From the NCBI GenBank assembly GCA_029785195.1, contig JAFMAD010000001.1:186001-250000 (forward strand): a DNA stretch of 64,000 nucleotides, in the 5' to 3' direction. The stretch's first letter is position 1. Every line of letters begins with the position of its first letter. Both the position numbers and the translations under genes were made by a program. Shown here piece after piece: positions 8,177 to 16,710 of the stretch. This stretch comes from Nitrososphaerota archaeon. GTDB taxonomy: Archaea > Thermoproteota > Nitrososphaeria > Nitrososphaerales > Gagatemarchaeaceae. The notes under the pieces were generated by a model. The model was not told the origin of the DNA, searched no databases, and saw nothing but the letters and a program-made list of their open reading frames with translations.

Positions 8177-8462
8177 CCCGCCTACCCTGGGGGGTGCATT
8201 ATTACTACCTTGTCATCGACGAGCGCCGGCACGCGCGAACGGCCCGAACAAGGGGTGAGCAGGCCGCTGCGGCTGTAATCGCGCTTCTGGGATGAAAACA
8301 GCCCCAAAAAGCCCCATCCAGGGCGTCTCCTCTTTTAGCGGGCGCCTGCTCAGAAAAACCGCCCTCCCGCGGCGGTGGGCGGCGGGCCCATCACGGCGAA
8401 TCTGGCTGCGATTCCCTTATATCCACTGTCAAACCTGTCCTACAGTCGGGGCTAAACTTCCT

Positions 8463-11400
8463 GTGACGTATATCCGAAGGCTGGAGATGCGCGGCTTCAA
8501 GTCCTCGGGCCCTCGTACCACGGTGGTCAACTTCGAGCGGGGGTTCACTGTCATCACCGGCCCCAACGGAAGCGGGAAGTCCAACATCGCAGACGCGATA
8601 GCGTTCACCATAGGGGAGAACTCGCCCAAAGCGCTGAGGGCGGCGAACGGGAGGCTCTCCGGGCTGATCTATGACCCGAGGAAGGAGGACTCGCCCGGGG
8701 ACGGAAGACCGAACGCCTGCAGGGTCACTATCCAGTTCGACAACTCCGACAGGGCGATACCTGTCGACTCCGACCTTGTGACCATCACGAGAGAGCTAAG
8801 GGAGGACGGCGAGAACACGTACTTCCTCAACGGGAGGAAGAGCACGAGGAGCGCGCTCACCGAGATCATAGACCTGGCGGGACTCGCGCCGAACGGGTTC
8901 AACATAGTCGCCCAGGGCGCCGCGACCAGGATGGCAGACCTCACCCCGGAAGAGAAGAGGAAGGTCATAGAAAGCGTCGTGGGGATCTCGAAGTTCGACG
9001 AGCGGAAGGCCGAGGCCCAGAGGCAGCTCAGCCAAGCGGATCAGAGACTCGAGGTCGCCATGGCGCGAATCGGCGAGATGAAGAGCACCCTCGAGTCCCT
9101 CGACTCCCAGAGGACAGAGATGGTGAGGTACAACCTCCTGGAGTCGCAGATCAGCTGGCTCAACGCCGTGATAACGTCGAAGAGGATCGCCGACCTGAAG
9201 ACCAGGCTCTCTGACCTGAGGTCGCAAGAGCAGGAGCTGAACGGGAAGCTCGGGGACCTTGGGGGGAAGATGGTCGAGCTGGAGAACCGCATATCCCAGG
9301 TCGAGAGCGACAAGACGAAGTTCATAGTCGAGGTCATCCAAGGCGGGGGGGCCAGCCACGTCGAGCTCCAGTTCCAGCTCGCGGGGCTCAGGAACGAGCT
9401 GGAGACGCTCGAGGCCGACTTGAAGACAGCGGAGGGGAACGTAGCGGAGCTGGAAGGGGAGACGGTCCCGCAGCTCAAGCAGGTCGTGGCTGAAAAGCAG
9501 AGGGAAGCCAACGCGGCGAGCTCGACCGTGAGACAGCTGACGGCCGAGATAGAGAAGCTCGACGCCAAACACGCCGAGCTTGCCCAGAAGCTGAAGGATT
9601 TCTTCCGCGCAGGGGAGGAGCTCAGGGGGACAATCGAAAAGAAGGGGAAGCTCACGGCCAGGGTCCAGCTCAAGCTCGCGGACCTGGCCCAGAAGCAGAC
9701 TCAGGTGGAGCTTGCCATCAACGCCACCAACGCCAGCCTCGGCGTGGAGAGGAAGCGCCTCGACGAGCTGAAGCTCAGGGTCGACGGCTACTCGGAGGTC
9801 CTGGGGAAGTTGGAGGCGAGCACGAAGCAGCTCTTCGAGCTCTACGACAGGTCGACCAAGGAGCTCGGCTCCATCGACGAGAGCCTCGCGGGGGCGGAGT
9901 CTACGAGGGAGAAGCTCGTGGCCTCCATACAAGGCGCGTCGAGGATATTGGAGAAGGCTTCGACGGAGATGTCGAAGGAGGAGGCGTTCAGGCACCTCTC
10001 TGAGAGCCTCGCGGGGGAGAGGAGCGGCCAGCTGAAGCTCCAAGAGTTCTGCGACCAGGGAGGGGTCCCAGGCTACGTCGGGAGGCTGGGCCAGGTGGTG
10101 AAGTACCCGCAGCAGTACTCTAAGGCGGTGAACGCCGTTATGGGCAGATGGCTCGGCGCCTTCATCGTCCAGGACCTGAAGTCGATGACGCAGCTCATAA
10201 AGGCGGCGAAGTCTCTGAAGGCGAAGAGCTTCTCTGTCATACCGCTGAGCGAGGTGGAGTCGGTAAAGGCCGCCGAGGTGGAGAAGTCTGCCGGGGTGAT
10301 AGGCCCGCTGTCAGACGTGATAAGGTGCGAGGACGAGTTCGAGGGGCTGGTCAACTTCCTCGCCGGTGACTCGGTCCTCGTCGAGACGGAGGCGATCGGC
10401 TACATCATGGCGTCAGAAGGCGTCAGAGCGGTGACCGAGGCGGGGGAGACCTTCGAGCCGGGCGGCAGGGCCTTCAGCTACGGCTACCAGGAGCTGGTGG
10501 TCAACCTGATGGAGGGCCTGGAGAACATCGAAGGGATGAGCGAGGTGGAGGACGCCGTCGGCGCCCTGAAGGGGGCCATCGAAAGGAGGAGGTCAGAGCT
10601 CAACTCCGTAGAATCAGGGGCCCGCTCTATGATGAAGGAGCGGATCAAGAAGATAGTCACGACCACCAGCCTGAAGGCCGAGGCTACCACGATCACAAGA
10701 ATGGCCAAGAGGTACAGCAGCATATTCAAGACAATGAACGCGGAGTACCAGAGGCAGGCCAGCGCTGTCGCGCGGCTCGAGGAGAAGCTCAAGGTCAGCG
10801 TCGAACGGAAGGAGTCCGTCGCCAAGGGGATCGGCTCGCTTCAGCGGGTGGTCGCCGACGCCCAGGCTCTGGGGCTGGAGGGGCACCTCGCCGAGCTCGA
10901 CGCCGCCAAGCAGTCGGTCTCCACCGAGATAGACGGCATCAGGAACAGGATCCAGGACCTCAATCTCACGCTCACGAGGGAGAAGGCGAACCTCGAGAAC
11001 GTCCTTCTCCGTGCGCTGGAGGAGAACCAGCTCGACCTGGCCAACGCCATCGAGGACCTGCAGTCGAACAAGCAGTTCGCCAGGGAGGCGCCGCGGAAGA
11101 TCAGGGAGCTCTCGGAGCAGAAGGCTTCTCTGGAGGCGCAGATCTCGAAGCTGAAGGAGTCCTCCAAGAGGAGCCAGCCGGTCCTTGACGAGTTCGACGC
11201 GAGGGCGAAGAAGCTGAAGGAAGAAAGGGACAGCATCTCTCGTTCGGTCGCGGGGCACCAGAAGGACCTCTTCGCCCTCGCCGGGCAGGTGTCGGCGGCC
11301 CAGGAGAAGATCGAGGAGGCCCTGGGGAGCCTCAGGATGCTCGGGTACTCGGAGGAGCTGGAGTACTTCGAGTCGTCCGAGTCGCTGCTTGCCGACCTCC

Positions 11401-12023
11401 AACAGGAGTATCAGGGGGCGAGCGGGTCGGTGAACAGGGGGGCCGACAGGCAGTACACTGAGATGTACCTGAGCTACAAGAACCTCTCTGTGAGGCACAA
11501 CGAGCTGGAGAACGAAAGGAACTCGATCATCGCGTTCATCGAGAGCGTGGACGCGGAGAAGAAGAAGGTGTTCATGTCAGCCTTCGACAGGGTGGGGGGG
11601 GAGTTCGGCTCCATATTCGCGAAGCTGACAGGGGGGAGGGCCCAGCTCGACCTCGAAAACCCGGACGAGATATTCGCCGGAGGGGTGTTCATGAGGGCAG
11701 ACTTCGGGAACGGGCTCCGCGAGTCTTCCCAGCACAGCGGGGGGCAGAGGGCTGTGACAGGGGTCGCCCTGATACTGGCGATGCAGGCAGTCCAGACGCA
11801 CCCGTTCTACCTCTTCGACGAGATTGACGCCCCGTTGGACGCGGTGAACTCGAGCAGCCTCGCGAAGTTCCTGAAGGAGAAGTCGTCCGAGGCTCAGATC
11901 ATCACCATCACCCTCAGGGACGTCTTCGTGGCGGAGAGCGACATGACGTATGGGGTCTACTCTGCTGGAGGTATCTCGAGGGTGGTCCACTACAAGCCCG
12001 CCGAGGTGCCGAGAAGTGCCTAG
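8463..12023 (+). CDS. smc: SMC chromosome-segregation ATPase
   Basis: 1186 residues from GTG 8463. Walker A GPNGSGKSN (about 33-41), long coiled coil, hinge domain (about 525-690) beginning GGVPGYVGRLGQVV, second coiled coil, ABC signature SQHSGGQR (about 1087) and Walker B YLFDEID (about 1114). SMC forms the ring-shaped condensin with ScpA and ScpB and organises the chromosome. The frame extends upstream to ATG 8292, but that stretch is unconserved and lies before CCTTATATCC (about 8415-8424), the likely TATA box. GTG 8463 directly precedes the conserved TYIRRLEMRGFKS. First gene of smc-scpA-scpB. Confidence 0.95.
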   Translation: MTYIRRLEMRGFKSSGPRTTVVNFERGFTVITGPNGSGKSNIADAIAFTIGENSPKALRAANGRLSGLIYDPRKEDSPGDGRPNACRVTIQFDNSDRAIPVDSDLVTITRELREDGENTYFLNGRKSTRSALTEIIDLAGLAPNGFNIVAQGAATRMADLTPEEKRKVIESVVGISKFDERKAEAQRQLSQADQRLEVAMARIGEMKSTLESLDSQRTEMVRYNLLESQISWLNAVITSKRIADLKTRLSDLRSQEQELNGKLGDLGGKMVELENRISQVESDKTKFIVEVIQGGGASHVELQFQLAGLRNELETLEADLKTAEGNVAELEGETVPQLKQVVAEKQREANAASSTVRQLTAEIEKLDAKHAELAQKLKDFFRAGEELRGTIEKKGKLTARVQLKLADLAQKQTQVELAINATNASLGVERKRLDELKLRVDGYSEVLGKLEASTKQLFELYDRSTKELGSIDESLAGAESTREKLVASIQGASRILEKASTEMSKEEAFRHLSESLAGERSGQLKLQEFCDQGGVPGYVGRLGQVVKYPQQYSKAVNAVMGRWLGAFIVQDLKSMTQLIKAAKSLKAKSFSVIPLSEVESVKAAEVEKSAGVIGPLSDVIRCEDEFEGLVNFLAGDSVLVETEAIGYIMASEGVRAVTEAGETFEPGGRAFSYGYQELVVNLMEGLENIEGMSEVEDAVGALKGAIERRRSELNSVESGARSMMKERIKKIVTTTSLKAEATTITRMAKRYSSIFKTMNAEYQRQASAVARLEEKLKVSVERKESVAKGIGSLQRVVADAQALGLEGHLAELDAAKQSVSTEIDGIRNRIQDLNLTLTREKANLENVLLRALEENQLDLANAIEDLQSNKQFAREAPRKIRELSEQKASLEAQISKLKESSKRSQPVLDEFDARAKKLKEERDSISRSVAGHQKDLFALAGQVSAAQEKIEEALGSLRMLGYSEELEYFESSESLLADLQQEYQGASGSVNRGADRQYTEMYLSYKNLSVRHNELENERNSIIAFIESVDAEKKKVFMSAFDRVGGEFGSIFAKLTGGRAQLDLENPDEIFAGGVFMRADFGNGLRESSQHSGGQRAVTGVALILAMQAVQTHPFYLFDEIDAPLDAVNSSSLAKFLKEKSSEAQIITITLRDVFVAESDMTYGVYSAGGISRVVHYKPAEVPRSA

Positions 12024-12678
12024 CTCGGCGGTCCTGGGGCGCCCGCCCCTCAACGTGCTGATCGACCCTTCCCTCGCCAAGCGCAAGAGCCCGTGGGAGA
12101 TCAACCTCACTGAGCTCCTCGACATGTTCCTGAAGGCAATCTCCCAGACAGAACTCATCGACATGCGCGCCGCGGGGACGGCAGCCCTCTCCTCGGCCAC
12201 CATCTACAGGCTCAAGGTCGAGACACTGTTCCTCTTCGAGAGGCTCAGGATGCAGCACAGGCTGGTCGACGCGAGCGAGCCCCCACAGATCATTGTGATG
12301 CCGTTCAGGTACGAGATCTACTCGACCAACATAGACGAGCTGTTCGACGAGCTCGGACGCATCCTGCAGGAGGTCGTGGTCACGGAGGAAGGGGGGGAGC
12401 AGAACCCACTCGCCATCGTAGACCTCCCGCCCCCGGACTTTGAAAACTACGTCGTATCGCTCCAGGTCCTCCTCTCTGAGTTCAGGAAGATACTCGTCGA
12501 GAGGCTGAGGGCGACTGGGAAGGCGCTCCTCTCGGATCTCCTCAGAGGGCTCTCCCCCATCGACGCCGCCCGCGTCTTCATACTCCTCCTTTTCGCGGCC
12601 AACGACGGCGAAGTGGTCATCAACCAGGAGGAGTCAGACGGAGACGCGCTGGTGGTGTCGGTGGGCCAGCTTGAGTAG
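12016..12678 (+). CDS. scpA: ScpA kleisin subunit of condensin
   Basis: 220 residues from GTG 12016, overlapping smc by 8 nt, with GAGGTG 8-13 nt upstream as ribosome-binding site. The kleisin N-terminal helical segment (PWEINLTELLDMFLKAI) binds the SMC neck. The C-terminal winged helix (RVFILLLFAANDGEVVINQEE) binds the SMC head. It bridges the two heads of the SMC dimer and recruits ScpB. The frame opens earlier at 11950, but those codons lie inside smc and do not resemble kleisin. Confidence 0.9.
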   Translation: MPSSAVLGRPPLNVLIDPSLAKRKSPWEINLTELLDMFLKAISQTELIDMRAAGTAALSSATIYRLKVETLFLFERLRMQHRLVDASEPPQIIVMPFRYEIYSTNIDELFDELGRILQEVVVTEEGGEQNPLAIVDLPPPDFENYVVSLQVLLSEFRKILVERLRATGKALLSDLLRGLSPIDAARVFILLLFAANDGEVVINQEESDGDALVVSVGQLE

Positions 12679-13213
12679 CGACGAGACGCAGGAGGCGCTC
12701 CCGAAGGAGATGCTAGCGAAGGTAGAGGCGGCGCTCTACGCAGCAGGGAGGCCCGTGTCGGTCGAAGACATCGCCCGCGTCGCAGGGACCACGTCCGAGA
12801 GGAAGGCCGCCGCCATCGCGAGGGAGGTCGCGAGGGCCGTCAACGGCGCCCTCCAGGCCGTGGAGGTCGTCGAGTACTCGGGTCCCAGGTTCGCCATGCA
12901 GCTGAAGGCGAAATACACCCAGACCGCGAGGAAGTTCGCCACGCGGCCGCTCCTGTCCAGGGCGGCGCTCAGGACGCTCTCCTTCATCGCCTTCTTCCAG
13001 CCTATATCGTCATCCGAGCTAGTCCAGAGGCGGAGCTCTACGGTCTACCAGCACCTGAAAGAGCTGGAGGCTGTCGGGTTCATCGTCGGGGAGAGGCAGG
13101 GGAGGAGCAGGGCGTACAAGACGACGGCGAGGTTCGCCGAGTACTTCGGCCTCAGCACCGAGCTCACGACCTTGAAGAGGCAGCTGGAGAGCAGGACGCT
13201 CACACTTAGGTGA
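12671..13213 (+). CDS. scpB: ScpB segregation and condensation protein
   Basis: 180 residues from TTG 12671, overlapping scpA by 8 nt. Two winged helices: EMLAKVEAALYAAGRPVSVED at the N-terminus (classic ScpB opening) and LSRAALRTLSFIAFFQPISSSEL in the second domain, followed by a recognition-like helix. ScpB dimers bind the kleisin centre and regulate the SMC ATPase. Gene order smc-scpA-scpB with repeated 8-nt overlaps implies strict co-translation. Confidence 0.9.
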   Translation: MSSDETQEALPKEMLAKVEAALYAAGRPVSVEDIARVAGTTSERKAAAIAREVARAVNGALQAVEVVEYSGPRFAMQLKAKYTQTARKFATRPLLSRAALRTLSFIAFFQPISSSELVQRRSSTVYQHLKELEAVGFIVGERQGRSRAYKTTARFAEYFGLSTELTTLKRQLESRTLTLR

Positions 13214-13283: not shown

Positions 13284-13670
13284 TTGACACGACCCATCGA
13301 GAACCTCACGAAACGCAAGCCGACCGGAGGCAGGTCAAGGCCCCAAAGGGGGAGGCGGGCCTACGAAAAGGACGGGTACGCCATCGAGCCCCTGGTAGGC
13401 CAGGCGTCGGTGAGGACGAGCAGGAGGCGCGGGGGGTCCCTCTCCACAGGCGTGATATTCGCCGACTATGCAAACGTCTCCGACAGGTCGGGGAAGGCGT
13501 CGAAGTCCAAGATACTCAGGGTTAAGAAGAGTCCCGCGAACAGGGACTACGAAAGGAGGGGCGTCATAACGAAGGGGGCCGTGCTGGAGACGGAGGCGGG
13601 GGAGGCGGTCGTCACCTCTCGCCCGACCGCCGACGGGGTGGTCAACGCGGTCCTCACCGCGAAGAAATGA
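13284..13670 (+). CDS. rps8e: ribosomal protein S8e
   Basis: 128 residues, archaeal/eukaryal small-subunit protein. KRKPTGGRSRP near the N-terminus, GVIFADYANVSDRSGKASK in the middle, and the C-terminal NRDYERRGVITKGAVLETE followed by VTSRP..GVVNAVL are S8e signatures. Start TTG 13284 gives MTRPIENLTKRKPTGG. An ATG at 13274 is out of frame. ATATGCTTAA at 13241-13250 is a likely TATA box, putting transcription start about 10-15 nt before the TTG. Overlaps SRP19 by 4 nt. Confidence 0.9.
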   Translation: MTRPIENLTKRKPTGGRSRPQRGRRAYEKDGYAIEPLVGQASVRTSRRRGGSLSTGVIFADYANVSDRSGKASKSKILRVKKSPANRDYERRGVITKGAVLETEAGEAVVTSRPTADGVVNAVLTAKK

Positions 13671-13993
13671 AGGAATACGACCGCTACATCTTCTGGCTCG
13701 ACTACTTCGACTCCGAGCTGAAGCGCAGCGAAGGGCGGAGGGTCCCGCTGAGTTCGGCGACCAGGGCCCCAGTCCTGGCGGAGCTCGCAGAGGCGTGCCG
13801 GAGGCTCAACCTGCAGCCACAGCCCCAAGCGGCCCGCTACCCCTCCATGCCTGGGAAGGAGTCGGGGTACGTCTCCGTGGCGAAGTCGCCGCCGAAGCGG
13901 GCGCTCCTCCTGAAGGTGGCGAAGGAGCTCTCGACCGTCAGAGGGATCGCGCAGAGGCGCCAGGCGCAGGCGCAGCAGCCGCGCAAAAAGTGA
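13667..13993 (+). CDS. srp19: signal recognition particle protein SRP19
   Basis: 108 residues. The N-terminal DRYIFWLDYFDSELKRSEGRR and VPLSSA segments, and later ARYPSMPGKESGYV, match SRP19, which binds 7S RNA helices 6 and 8 so that SRP54 can assemble. The basic tail RRQAQAQQPRKK is RNA-binding in character. ATG 13667 overlaps the S8e stop by 4 nt (ATGA). Confidence 0.9.
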   Translation: MKEYDRYIFWLDYFDSELKRSEGRRVPLSSATRAPVLAELAEACRRLNLQPQPQAARYPSMPGKESGYVSVAKSPPKRALLLKVAKELSTVRGIAQRRQAQAQQPRKK

Positions 13994-14029
13994 GCGACCC
14001 CCAACGTTTAAAGGCAGGACAAGGGGCGT

Positions 14030-14257
14030 TTGCCTTTCTTGCTTCAGGTGGGCACGGTCATTCATAGGGCCAAGAGTGGCCGGCTCGTAGTCCACCTTAC
14101 CAGAGAGGTCAGGCCAGGCGCCTTCCTCTTCGACGAAGGGAGGAGGAAGCTCGGGAAAGTCGTCGAGTTGATCGGCCCTGTGAAGTCCCCCTACGCGTCG
14201 GTCGCCCCCGCGAGCGACCGCGCGGGAAGACCGGGAGAGCCCGCATTCGCGGAGTGA
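14030..14257 (+). CDS. gar1: H/ACA ribonucleoprotein subunit Gar1
   Basis: 75 residues, single beta-barrel domain: VGTVIHRAKSGRLVVHL, GAFLFDEGRRKLGKVVELIGPVKSPYASV. Gar1 completes the H/ACA pseudouridylation complex with Cbf5, Nop10 and L7Ae. GTTTAAAG at 14006-14013 is the likely TATA box. TTG 14030 is only about 21 nt away, so TTG 14039 (giving MLQVGTV...) may be the real leaderless start. The gar1-TFB pair is a widely conserved archaeal neighbourhood. Confidence 0.9.
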   Translation: MPFLLQVGTVIHRAKSGRLVVHLTREVRPGAFLFDEGRRKLGKVVELIGPVKSPYASVAPASDRAGRPGEPAFAE

Positions 14258-14261
14258 GGTC

Positions 14262-15209
14262 ATGAGTATCTGGAGCAGTACCAGGGACGAGGACTTCAGG
14301 ACCTCCTGCCCCGTTTGCGGCAACAGGCTGATCGGTGACTCGGAGAAAGGGGAGCAGGTCTGCCCCACGTGCGGTTACGTCACCCTGGCCCCCGCTGACG
14401 CCGGCCCGGAATGGAAGGCCATGGACCTGGAGGAGAAGAACAAGCGTGTGAGGGTGGGCGCTCCGACGACCCTGGCGCTCCACGACTTCGGGCTCACCAC
14501 GGAGATCGGGAGGACCATGCGCGACTCCCATGGGAAATACCTCGACCCCGCAATGAGGGCGACCGTGGAGAAGATGAGGAAGTGGCAGAGCAGGTCCAGG
14601 ACGATAAGCAGCGAAGAGCGAGGGCTCTCGAACGTCCTTTCGAAGATCAGCGAGCTCTGCGACGCGTTGAACCTGCCGGACAACGTCGCCGAGACGGCAG
14701 CCCAGATCTACCGGACCTCGGCCAAAAAGAAGGTGGCCAAGAGCAAGTCGGTACTCGGAATGACAGCGGCGACGGTGTACCTGGCGTGCAGGAAGTGCGG
14801 GGTGTCTCGCACCCTCAAGGAGGTGGCCAGGGCCTCGGGGATGGAGAAGGGGAGCGTCGCCCGCTACTTCCGCCTTGTCCTGAAGGAGGTCGAGAAGGAG
14901 TACGTCCCTCCGCCCTCGGTAGAGAAGTACATCTCAAAACTGGTCAACATAGCCAAGATTGACACCAGGGTCGAGCACCTCGCCCTTACCCTCTCCCGCA
15001 AGACGAGCGACTCGCGGATCTCCAGCGGCAAGGCCCCGGCGGGGCTCGCCGCCGCCTACGTCTACCTCTCGTCCGTCATGGTGGGGGAGCACCTCCCACA
15101 GAGGGAGGTGGCGGAGTTCGCGGAGGTGACCGAGGTGACCGTAAGAAATAGGTGCAGGGAGATACTTGACAACTACGTGATCAGACAGGAGTTCATGCCG
15201 TCAAAATGA
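14262..15209 (+). CDS. tfb: transcription initiation factor TFB (TFIIB)
   Basis: 315 residues. Zinc ribbon with Cys16-x2-Cys19...Cys34-x2-Cys37, B-reader/linker region, then two cyclin-like repeats (about 115-205 and 210-305). The second contains EVTVRNRCREIL, the helix-turn-helix that contacts the BRE. TFB bridges TBP-DNA and RNA polymerase. It follows gar1 closely and overlaps the RPC34-like gene by 4 nt. Confidence 0.95.
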   Translation: MSIWSSTRDEDFRTSCPVCGNRLIGDSEKGEQVCPTCGYVTLAPADAGPEWKAMDLEEKNKRVRVGAPTTLALHDFGLTTEIGRTMRDSHGKYLDPAMRATVEKMRKWQSRSRTISSEERGLSNVLSKISELCDALNLPDNVAETAAQIYRTSAKKKVAKSKSVLGMTAATVYLACRKCGVSRTLKEVARASGMEKGSVARYFRLVLKEVEKEYVPPPSVEKYISKLVNIAKIDTRVEHLALTLSRKTSDSRISSGKAPAGLAAAYVYLSSVMVGEHLPQREVAEFAEVTEVTVRNRCREILDNYVIRQEFMPSK

Positions 15210-15700
15210 AGCAGAAGAAACGCGTCAGCAAGGAGGCTGCCAAGAAGCAGGGCAGGCCCCGCCAGAAGAAGGAAGCAGAGCCAGAGAAGCCTGTCGAGAG
15301 GACGGAGGAGGAGCTGGTCGACCTCACATCCAGGGTCTACAAGCTGGTGGTCGAGACAGGGAGGGACGGCGTCCTCCAGAGCGAGATATGGAAGGAGCTC
15401 GGGCTCACGAGCAGGGACGGGTCGAGGCTCGCGATCAGGCTTGAGAGGCGGGGGCTAATCGGGAGGGTGAAGGTCCTGGAGGACGGCCGCTGGACCTACA
15501 AGCTCACCCCTCTCCGGTTCCCAACCGACATGGCTTCGATAGAGAAGGCCCCCTGCATAGTCTGCCAGTACGAGCCGAAGTGCTCCATCGAAGGTGAGGT
15601 CAGCCCGTACGTCTGTCCATGGATAGGGCCCTGGGTCATCCAGGAGGTGATGGCAGCGCGAACTGGCGCGCCTGCGCCTGAACCAGTCTCCGCAGGGTAG
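15206..15700 (+). CDS. RPC34/C39-like transcription factor with a putative Fe-S cluster
   Basis: 164 residues: Lys-rich tail (1-35), a winged helix (about 40-100; VYKLVVETGRDGVLQSEIWK...GSRLAIRLERRGLIGR), then four cysteines Cys117, Cys120, Cys126, Cys137 (CIVCQYEPKC...YVCPW). This layout is that of the archaeal orthologue of RNA polymerase III subunit RPC34/hRPC39, known from Crenarchaeota and Thaumarchaeota, whose C-terminal cysteines hold a cubane [4Fe-4S] cluster. ATGA overlap with TFB suggests it is made together with the initiation machinery. Role in vivo is not settled; a promoter-opening role like TFIIE or RPC34 is inferred. Confidence 0.75.
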   Translation: MKQKKRVSKEAAKKQGRPRQKKEAEPEKPVERTEEELVDLTSRVYKLVVETGRDGVLQSEIWKELGLTSRDGSRLAIRLERRGLIGRVKVLEDGRWTYKLTPLRFPTDMASIEKAPCIVCQYEPKCSIEGEVSPYVCPWIGPWVIQEVMAARTGAPAPEPVSAG

Positions 15701-15709
15701 TCCAAAGCC

Positions 15710-16117
15710 ATGGCGAAGAAAGAGTTGACGGCCCTCGTAGACGCCGCCAGGAAGGCGCGCGAGAACGCATATTCCCCATACTCGGGGGTAAAGATCGGGG
15801 CCGCCGTCCTGACGTCGGACGGGTCTGTCTACACCGGGGCGAACATAGAGAACGTGTCCTATGGGCTCTCCTGCTGCGCCGAGAGGACGGCGATATTCAA
15901 GGCCGTCTCCGAGGGGAAGGTGAAGATACTCGCCATAGCCGTGGTGGGGAAGTCTGAGCAGTTCACGAGGCCGTGCGGCGCCTGCAGGCAAGTCATGGTC
16001 GAGTTCAACCCTGCCATGACCGTGATGATGCGCGGGACCGACGGCTTCGCCGAGGACGCGGCCGCCGAGTCGCTCCTCCCAGCGAGCTTCAACCCCCCTG
16101 AGCTCTCGAAGCGATGA
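15710..16117 (+). CDS. cdd: cytidine deaminase
   Basis: 135 residues. Zinc site Cys56-Ala57-Glu58 (SCCAERTA, Glu is the proton shuttle) with Cys89 and Cys92 (PCGACRQ); substrate segments YSPYSGVKIGAA and GANIENVSYG. Deaminates cytidine and deoxycytidine to uridine forms for pyrimidine salvage. Single-domain tetrameric class. Overlaps the rlmE-like gene by 4 nt. Confidence 0.95.
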   Translation: MAKKELTALVDAARKARENAYSPYSGVKIGAAVLTSDGSVYTGANIENVSYGLSCCAERTAIFKAVSEGKVKILAIAVVGKSEQFTRPCGACRQVMVEFNPAMTVMMRGTDGFAEDAAAESLLPASFNPPELSKR

Positions 16118-16710
16118 GGCTGAGCGAAGCGCGGCGGGATCTGTACCGGCGCCTGGCCAGGGAGCAGGGGTACAAGAGCAGGGCCGCCTTCAAGCTCATC
16201 GAAGCCAACGAGCGCTACGGGTTCATCCGGCGGGGGGACAGGGTGGCAGACTTCGGCGCAGCCCCTGGGGGATGGCTCCAGGTGGCGTCCTTCCTGGTCG
16301 GCGAGGAAGGGGTGGTGGTGGGGGTGGACTTGGATCCGATCCGGCTGAAGGAGAAGAACGTCGTGGCCATCAAGATGGACGTGCACGACCCCGCAGTGGC
16401 CGAGAGGGTGTCCCAGGCCCTGGGGGGGAAGGCAGACGTCATCCTCTCCGACCTCGCCCCCTCGGTCACGGGGGTCTGGGAGCTGGACCAGACGAGGCAG
16501 ATAGACATGACCCTGCGGGTCCTCGAGCTGTCCCGCACCCTCCTCAAGGACGAAGGCCGCGTCTACTGCAAGCTCTTCGAGGGGGAGCGGTCGCAGGAGG
16601 TCCGGGGGGAGTTCCGCAGGATGTTCAGGTCGGTCAGGGTGATCAAGCCCGCGGCCAGCAGGAACTCCGCCTCCGAGCTGTACTACCTGTGCGAAGGGGC
16701 GAAGGGATGA
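16114..16710 (+). CDS. rlmE: FtsJ/RlmE-type ribose 2'-O-methyltransferase
   Basis: 198 residues. SAM-binding RVADFGAAPGGWLQVAS and VDLDP segments. The catalytic Lys-Asp-Lys-Glu tetrad is visible as SRAAFKL, ILSDLAP, RVYCKLFEG and ASELYYL. In bacteria RlmE methylates U2552 of 23S rRNA; the archaeal form is assumed to act on the equivalent site. ATG 16114 overlaps the cdd stop (ATGA). Confidence 0.9.
   Translation: MRLSEARRDLYRRLAREQGYKSRAAFKLIEANERYGFIRRGDRVADFGAAPGGWLQVASFLVGEEGVVVGVDLDPIRLKEKNVVAIKMDVHDPAVAERVSQALGGKADVILSDLAPSVTGVWELDQTRQIDMTLRVLELSRTLLKDEGRVYCKLFEGERSQEVRGEFRRMFRSVRVIKPAASRNSASELYYLCEGAKG

Follow-up and report, generated by a model that had tools for sequence, protein, structure and literature searches.

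What is encoded by the short open reading frame (ORF) that follows a TFB gene in a Nitrososphaerota archaeon, and does it tie a Pol III-like factor to the production of noncoding RNA? An earlier note had described the product as an RPC34-like Fe-S factor coupled to TFB. The window analyzed here, the whole stretch of 64,000 nucleotides, comes from a genome of 1.6 Mb rated 78% complete. Our data indicate, with a probability of roughly 94%, that the product of ORF 15206-15700 is TFE-beta, which is the beta subunit of TFE, a general initiation factor of archaea. TFE-beta is a homolog of TFIIE-beta and of Pol III hRPC39. Both its family and its gene arrangement, the latter from related archaea, have been described before, and the gene is an ordinary case; the earlier note had caught the fold relation, the cysteine site, and the coupling to TFB and had missed the established TFE-beta name and role.

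The gene run around the ORF

The ORF and its neighbors are listed below in window coordinates.

13667-13993: SRP19, upstream of Gar1
14003-14014, + strand: AACGTTTAAAGG, a TATA-like element that is conserved and has the Gar1 start about 30 nt downstream
14030/14039-14257, + strand: Gar1, an H/ACA RNP protein (PF04410, E 4.3e-7, just above cut-off)
14262-15209, + strand: TFB paralog (PF00382, E 5.2e-32; zinc ribbon PF08271, E 4.1e-8)
15206-15700, + strand: very probable TFE-beta gene, 164 aa, ATG start (ORF call, sequence and fold matches, cysteine alignment)
15206-15301, + strand: basic low-complexity N-terminal tail, residues 1 to 32 (13 K/R versus 5 D/E, low model confidence)
15305-15511, + strand: winged-helix domain, residues 34 to 102 (H34-54, H58-65, H69-82, E85-92, and E95-102 in the model)
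15554-15616, + strand: four-cysteine site C117/C120/C126/C137, predicted [4Fe-4S] site (alignment, spacing)
15710-16117, + strand: cytidine deaminase, the next gene in the run after TFE-beta
16114-16710, + strand: FtsJ-family methyltransferase, RrmJ-like (below the NCBIfam RrmJ cut-off)

The ATG of the ORF overlaps the stop of the TFB gene in an ATGA string, and the start of the methyltransferase gene overlaps the cytidine deaminase stop in the same way. The methyltransferase gene lies near TFE-beta in all 30 best-matching loci of the near-genome search; the cytidine deaminase gene was not found at the locus in some relatives. With its start region set against those of 27 relatives, Gar1 probably begins at the TTG at 14039. 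Its end and the TFB start at 14262 bear out the nearness to Gar1 that had been pointed out before. Upstream of the S8e/SRP19/Gar1/TFB run, positions 8292 to 13213 hold a long ORF reading like an SMC ATPase, together with an ORF having a sub-cut-off ScpA match and a ScpB gene.

Identity of the ORF product

Among PDB sequences, the top phmmer match of the ORF product was human Pol III RPC6/RPC39 (whole-chain E 0.0074), the best single stretch covering residues 43 to 144 with the cysteine site included (i-E 0.42). A 38-row profile again placed the human RPC6/RPC39 chain first (E 2.3e-4), with the cysteine stretch alone at 0.013 and MarR chains coming next, from 0.043. By sequence, the winged helix reached only 3.5 to 6 bits against RPC6 residues 94 to 145, which is not significant alone. 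The structure model of the protein has a mean pLDDT of 74 and a pTM of 0.46, with residues 1 to 26 below 50 and the C-terminal part, residues 111 to 150, at block pLDDT values of 70 to 87. When it was compared with known structures by Foldseek, ranks 1 to 4 of 1337 matches went to Pol III entries with the RPC39 chain (8ity_P, 7d58_P, 2dk5, and 8iue_P; E 3.8e-4 to 1.1e-3). The 7d58 entry holds RPC6 according to the PDB listing and 2dk5 is titled 39-kDa polypeptide; the P chains of 8ity and 8iue we take to be RPC39 from their chain letter. TM-scores to these chains were at most 0.42, save for 0.62 (target normalized) for the lone winged helix 2dk5, and rmsd values ranged from 8.6 to 16.5, probably because of domain placement and the disordered tail. 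Both by sequence and by Foldseek, the proposed likeness of this winged-helix protein to Pol III RPC34/hRPC39 was recovered at modest scores, and the fold similarity to hRPC39 asked for in the earlier note was found in the top four ranks.

In human RPC39/RPC6 (POLR3F), the C-terminal cysteine site aligns by sequence with the ORF product, and the fold matches both the winged helix and the cysteine part of the model. RPC39, however, is a polymerase subunit of 316 residues with three winged helices (PMC4495717), whereas the protein studied here has 164 residues and a single winged helix in the model, which does not fit an RPC39/RPC34-type polymerase subunit. One winged helix followed by a C-terminal four-cysteine domain is the architecture of archaeal TFE-beta (Sso0944, Saci_1342). 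Unlike Saccharolobus TFE-beta, the protein carries a basic low-complexity N-terminal tail, a kind of extension already described for thaumarchaeal members in PMC2770514, and its gene is followed by those for cytidine deaminase and the FtsJ-family enzyme.

MarR-family regulators have the winged-helix fold in common with the ORF product, which could therefore be a MarR-type regulator with a metal-binding tail and not a basal factor. The combined Pfam and NCBIfam scan gave no RPC34 or TFE-beta family match at E ≤ 0.1, and among the Pfam matches over the winged helix, all below their cut-offs, MarR_2 (E 0.0042) and MarR (E 0.015) stood beside DUF7646 (E 0.0018) and DUF7343 (E 0.08). MarR chains also come close behind RPC39 in Foldseek, where MepR holds rank 5 (E 1.8e-3), and with other winged helices they make up most VIA-align matches, most rows of which cover residues 34 to 110 and leave the cysteine domain outside. 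Against this reading, the MarR_2 and MarR scores reach only 17.7 of 27 and 15.6 of 24.6 bits, the cysteine domain aligns with RPC39, and PMC2770514 describes the misannotation of family members as MarR. The distribution of the gene argues in the same direction: of 60 near genomes, that of the window not counted, 51 have a match, as do all 32 well-completed ones, 30 of them with a single match. Taken together, these points make a MarR-type regulator extremely improbable.

The four cysteines, C117, C120, C126, and C137 (C-x2-C-x5-C-x10-C), are invariant in all 38 aligned homologs, that is, the window and 37 of 43 named homologous loci. These loci come mostly from metagenome assemblies titled Thaumarchaeota, Nitrososphaerales/Nitrososphaerota, or "archaeon," with "Candidatus Gagatemarchaeum stordalenia" (L088, 73%) among them. 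The CxxC-x(3-5)-C-x(4-10)-C site of archaeal TFE-beta is present with a spacing of 2-5-10 and is aligned with RPC39. This spacing equals that of the published positions C92/C95/C101/C112 in Sso TFE-beta, where serine at 92, 95, and 112 abolished the cluster and the TFE-alpha partner and C101S had little effect (PMC4495717). Because the cysteines are invariant and their spacing is that of Sso TFE-beta, a [4Fe-4S] cluster is strongly predicted by analogy; the Fe-S-type site read from the sequence earlier holds as to the four residues and their published spacing type, the cluster itself being predicted.

The presumed partner of TFE-beta, TFE-alpha (PF02002), was not found in the source genome at its 78% completeness. 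Of 61 genomes, with the source genome counted as a miss, 52 have it at E ≤ 0.001 and 51 above the Pfam cut-off; all 32 well-completed genomes have it, G044 among them below the cut-off. These relatives speak against beta without alpha as a lineage trait, a reading that we rejected, and the absence is best read as incompleteness of the assembly.

Some single cases may be recorded here. A distance of about 3 kb separates the TFE-alpha and TFE-beta matches on contig G041:C102 (L143), where both share one strand. Second, weaker TFE-beta matches, possibly paralogs, occur at G049:C3:30687-31034 (43% identity) and at G041:C126:11657-11800 (46% over only 48 residues). In the phylum search, G220, a genome of family f10 that is 99% complete on a single contig, had no TFE-beta match at E ≤ 0.001, and the other 28 genomes of this family do have one; the miss may reflect loss, divergence, or an assembly frameshift.

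Linkage to a TFB paralog

In all 30 best-matching near-genome loci, 29 from the family of the window and one from f9, a TFB gene lies directly upstream of TFE-beta. A possible TFE-beta start shares four bases with the TFB stop in 24 of them (22 ATG, 1 TTG, and 1 GTG) and one base in 3, and a TTG abuts the stop in 1; no possible start was found near the TFB stop in the remaining two (L026 and L030). The coupling to TFB claimed from the window is thus real here, as the ATGA overlap, and general among these loci. From the overlaps and the few-base spacing, TFB and TFE-beta would share one message. Among the 43 named loci, which are partly repeats of the same genomes, TFB is upstream in 33 and was not found there in 10 (L094 to L103), which include "Candidatus Nitrosotalea" and Nitrosopumilaceae and of which L094 has only about 100 bases of upstream sequence.

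The linkage extends beyond the family. At least 7 of 24 genomes from other families of the order (f4, f7, f9, f11, and f13) have a TFB no more than 163 bases from TFE-beta, and two more have one within about 1.2 and 3 kb; in 15, contig breaks and one missing TFE-beta among them, there is no TFB beside TFE-beta among the matches listed. Across the phylum, pairs within 222 bases were read by eye in at least 31 of 200 genomes (the source genome included) from 12 families, the spacing being computed for 30 of the 31, our own aside; a further typed pair (G218) is 2,250 bases apart. Taken together, the two surveys give a minimum of 17 families with the adjacency. The link to TFB, though real, had been reported before, for Crenarchaeota: PMC2770514 describes potential cotranscription with a TFB paralog in the majority of them, and in Sulfolobus acidocaldarius, TFB2 (saci_1341) and TFE-beta (saci_1342) bear consecutive tags, the transcripts of TFB1, TFB2, and TFE-beta rising on nutrient depletion (PMC6335949). 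We met no statement of a thaumarchaeal TFB-TFE-beta operon in the literature; such an operon may have been published all the same, Figure 3 of PMC2770514 being one place where it could appear.

Which TFB is linked was asked of a tree of 69 rows, hand-picked among the matches listed: 47 unlinked, 21 linked (the window included), and the G047 copy. One branch with 100/99 support sets off 39 of the 47 unlinked rows and none of the 21 linked ones, which lie outside it along with 8 unlinked rows and the G047 copy, whose distance from TFE-beta is 1.2 kb. Both linked and unlinked rows were available for 17 genomes, and in all 17 the linked TFB is excluded from this general group, to which another TFB belongs. 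A second tree with ten rows fewer, chiefly long branches, behaved alike: a 100/99 branch separates 34 of its 40 unlinked rows from the rest, and all 19 linked rows remain outside; both trees were midpoint rooted, and the tree program issued a warning about long branches that meet. A TFB that adjoins TFE-beta is, throughout the genomes compared, one other than the general TFB. Linked rows of the order of the window and of other classes are not one clade in the drawn tree, which for that reason does not show one TFB2 group, and calling the linked TFB "TFB2-like" would be a statement about gene position alone, Saci TFB2 not being among the rows.

Besides the linked TFB, two further TFB matches turned up in the source genome, one with 40% identity and the other, of 169 residues with 32% identity, only partial. 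The latter (G000:C68:60854-61366) covers only query residues 133 to 301, with the zinc-ribbon part outside the match. In the linked TFB, what we take to be the zinc ribbon, the B-reader region, and the C-terminal HTH are all present. Because its four zinc-ribbon cysteines and the TEVTVRNR stretch of the C-terminal HTH are retained, it looks like a working TFB.

Ahead of the gene run, TTTAAA at 14007, 32 nt before the probable Gar1 start, is the sole occurrence of this string in the 64-kb window. In two overlapping sets of related loci, 25 of 29 and 27 of 32 carry it in the 60 nt ahead of gar1, versus 1 of 1,485 and 3 of 4,589 control stretches of the same loci, which are mostly coding and unmatched in composition. 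The longer AASGTTTAAAGG occurs once per genome in the three scanned (the source genome, G004, and G015), always upstream of the linked TFB, and its reversed control does not occur in these three. Judged by position and conservation, the TATA-like element is probably the promoter of gar1-tfb-tfeB, the transcript of which would be leaderless or nearly so. A crude scan of 16 loci outside the family gave scattered TTTAAA matches in 4, not placed against gar1.

General factor or dedicated pair

The family was described in 2009 as archaeal RPC34, from Crenarchaeota and Thaumarchaeota, with tRNA and rRNA modification genes as neighbors in both and a Gar1 homolog upstream of Sso0944, and a role in noncoding RNA transcription was proposed from this genome context (PMC2770514). 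It was renamed TFE-beta in 2015 as the partner of TFE-alpha, essential and not an RNA polymerase (RNAP) subunit; the Saccharolobus TFE-alpha/beta dimer sits on the RNAP clamp and aids DNA melting (PMC4495717). In Saccharolobus chromatin immunoprecipitation, the TFE-beta signal tracks TFB and RNAP across 298 transcription units, which were selected for TFB and TFE-beta signal, TFE peaks within the rRNA operon being removed for background (PMC8448881). A review likewise treats TFE-beta as a general factor, with a cluster prone to oxidative damage (PMC7289017).

The 2009 proposal lives on in the view that TFE-beta and the linked TFB are a Pol III-like specificity factor, initiating transcription at the genes for tRNA, rRNA, and small RNAs as a dedicated pair. 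The TFB linkage, the Gar1 and methyltransferase neighbors, the difference between the linked and the general TFB, and the published genome-context argument all lend themselves to it. However, Saccharolobus TFE-alpha/beta stimulated all six promoters tested, coding and noncoding, about two- to fourfold, and the weakest responses were those of the T6 and 16S/23S rRNA promoters (PMC4495717), and in haloarchaea, according to a review, about a third of transcription units are misregulated once TFE-beta is removed (PMC7289017). Moreover, four genomes of families f2, f10, and f14 have the nearest relative of the linked TFB, among the matches listed, on the contig of TFE-beta but hundreds of kilobases away from it. 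Upstream of a tRNA-Arg gene in the window, inspection by eye shows an A/T-rich box of another kind, and in this comparison of one tRNA, nothing ties the operon element to tRNA promoters. We consider such a specificity factor very unlikely. The special link to noncoding RNA production drawn in the earlier note is the 2009 hypothesis, which the later Saccharolobus papers have so far not borne out.

For the general factor TFE-beta, we infer the cluster, dimerization with TFE-alpha, the single message, and the stimulation of initiation. TFE-beta would be made together with the TFB paralog from one gar1-tfb-tfeB transcription unit, the translation of the two being coupled through ATGA. By analogy with Saccharolobus, its four cysteines would hold a [4Fe-4S] cluster, and the cluster domain would pair with the winged helix and tail of TFE-alpha. 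The dimer, sitting on the clamp, would aid DNA melting after RNAP has been brought to the promoter by TBP and TFB.

In conclusion, the linked gene is that of another, faster-evolving TFB and not of the general one, in thaumarchaeal and other lineages of the phylum among the genomes compared. The 2009 idea of a TFB paralog paired with TFE-beta can now be tested across lineages that keep the linkage versus those without it. A further, rather speculative proposal is that the two proteins, made in a fixed ratio from a promoter under their own control, form a dedicated pair and an alternative preinitiation complex, the output of which falls when the oxidation-sensitive cluster is lost. If this were true, the pair would give the cell a two-component switch of promoter use.
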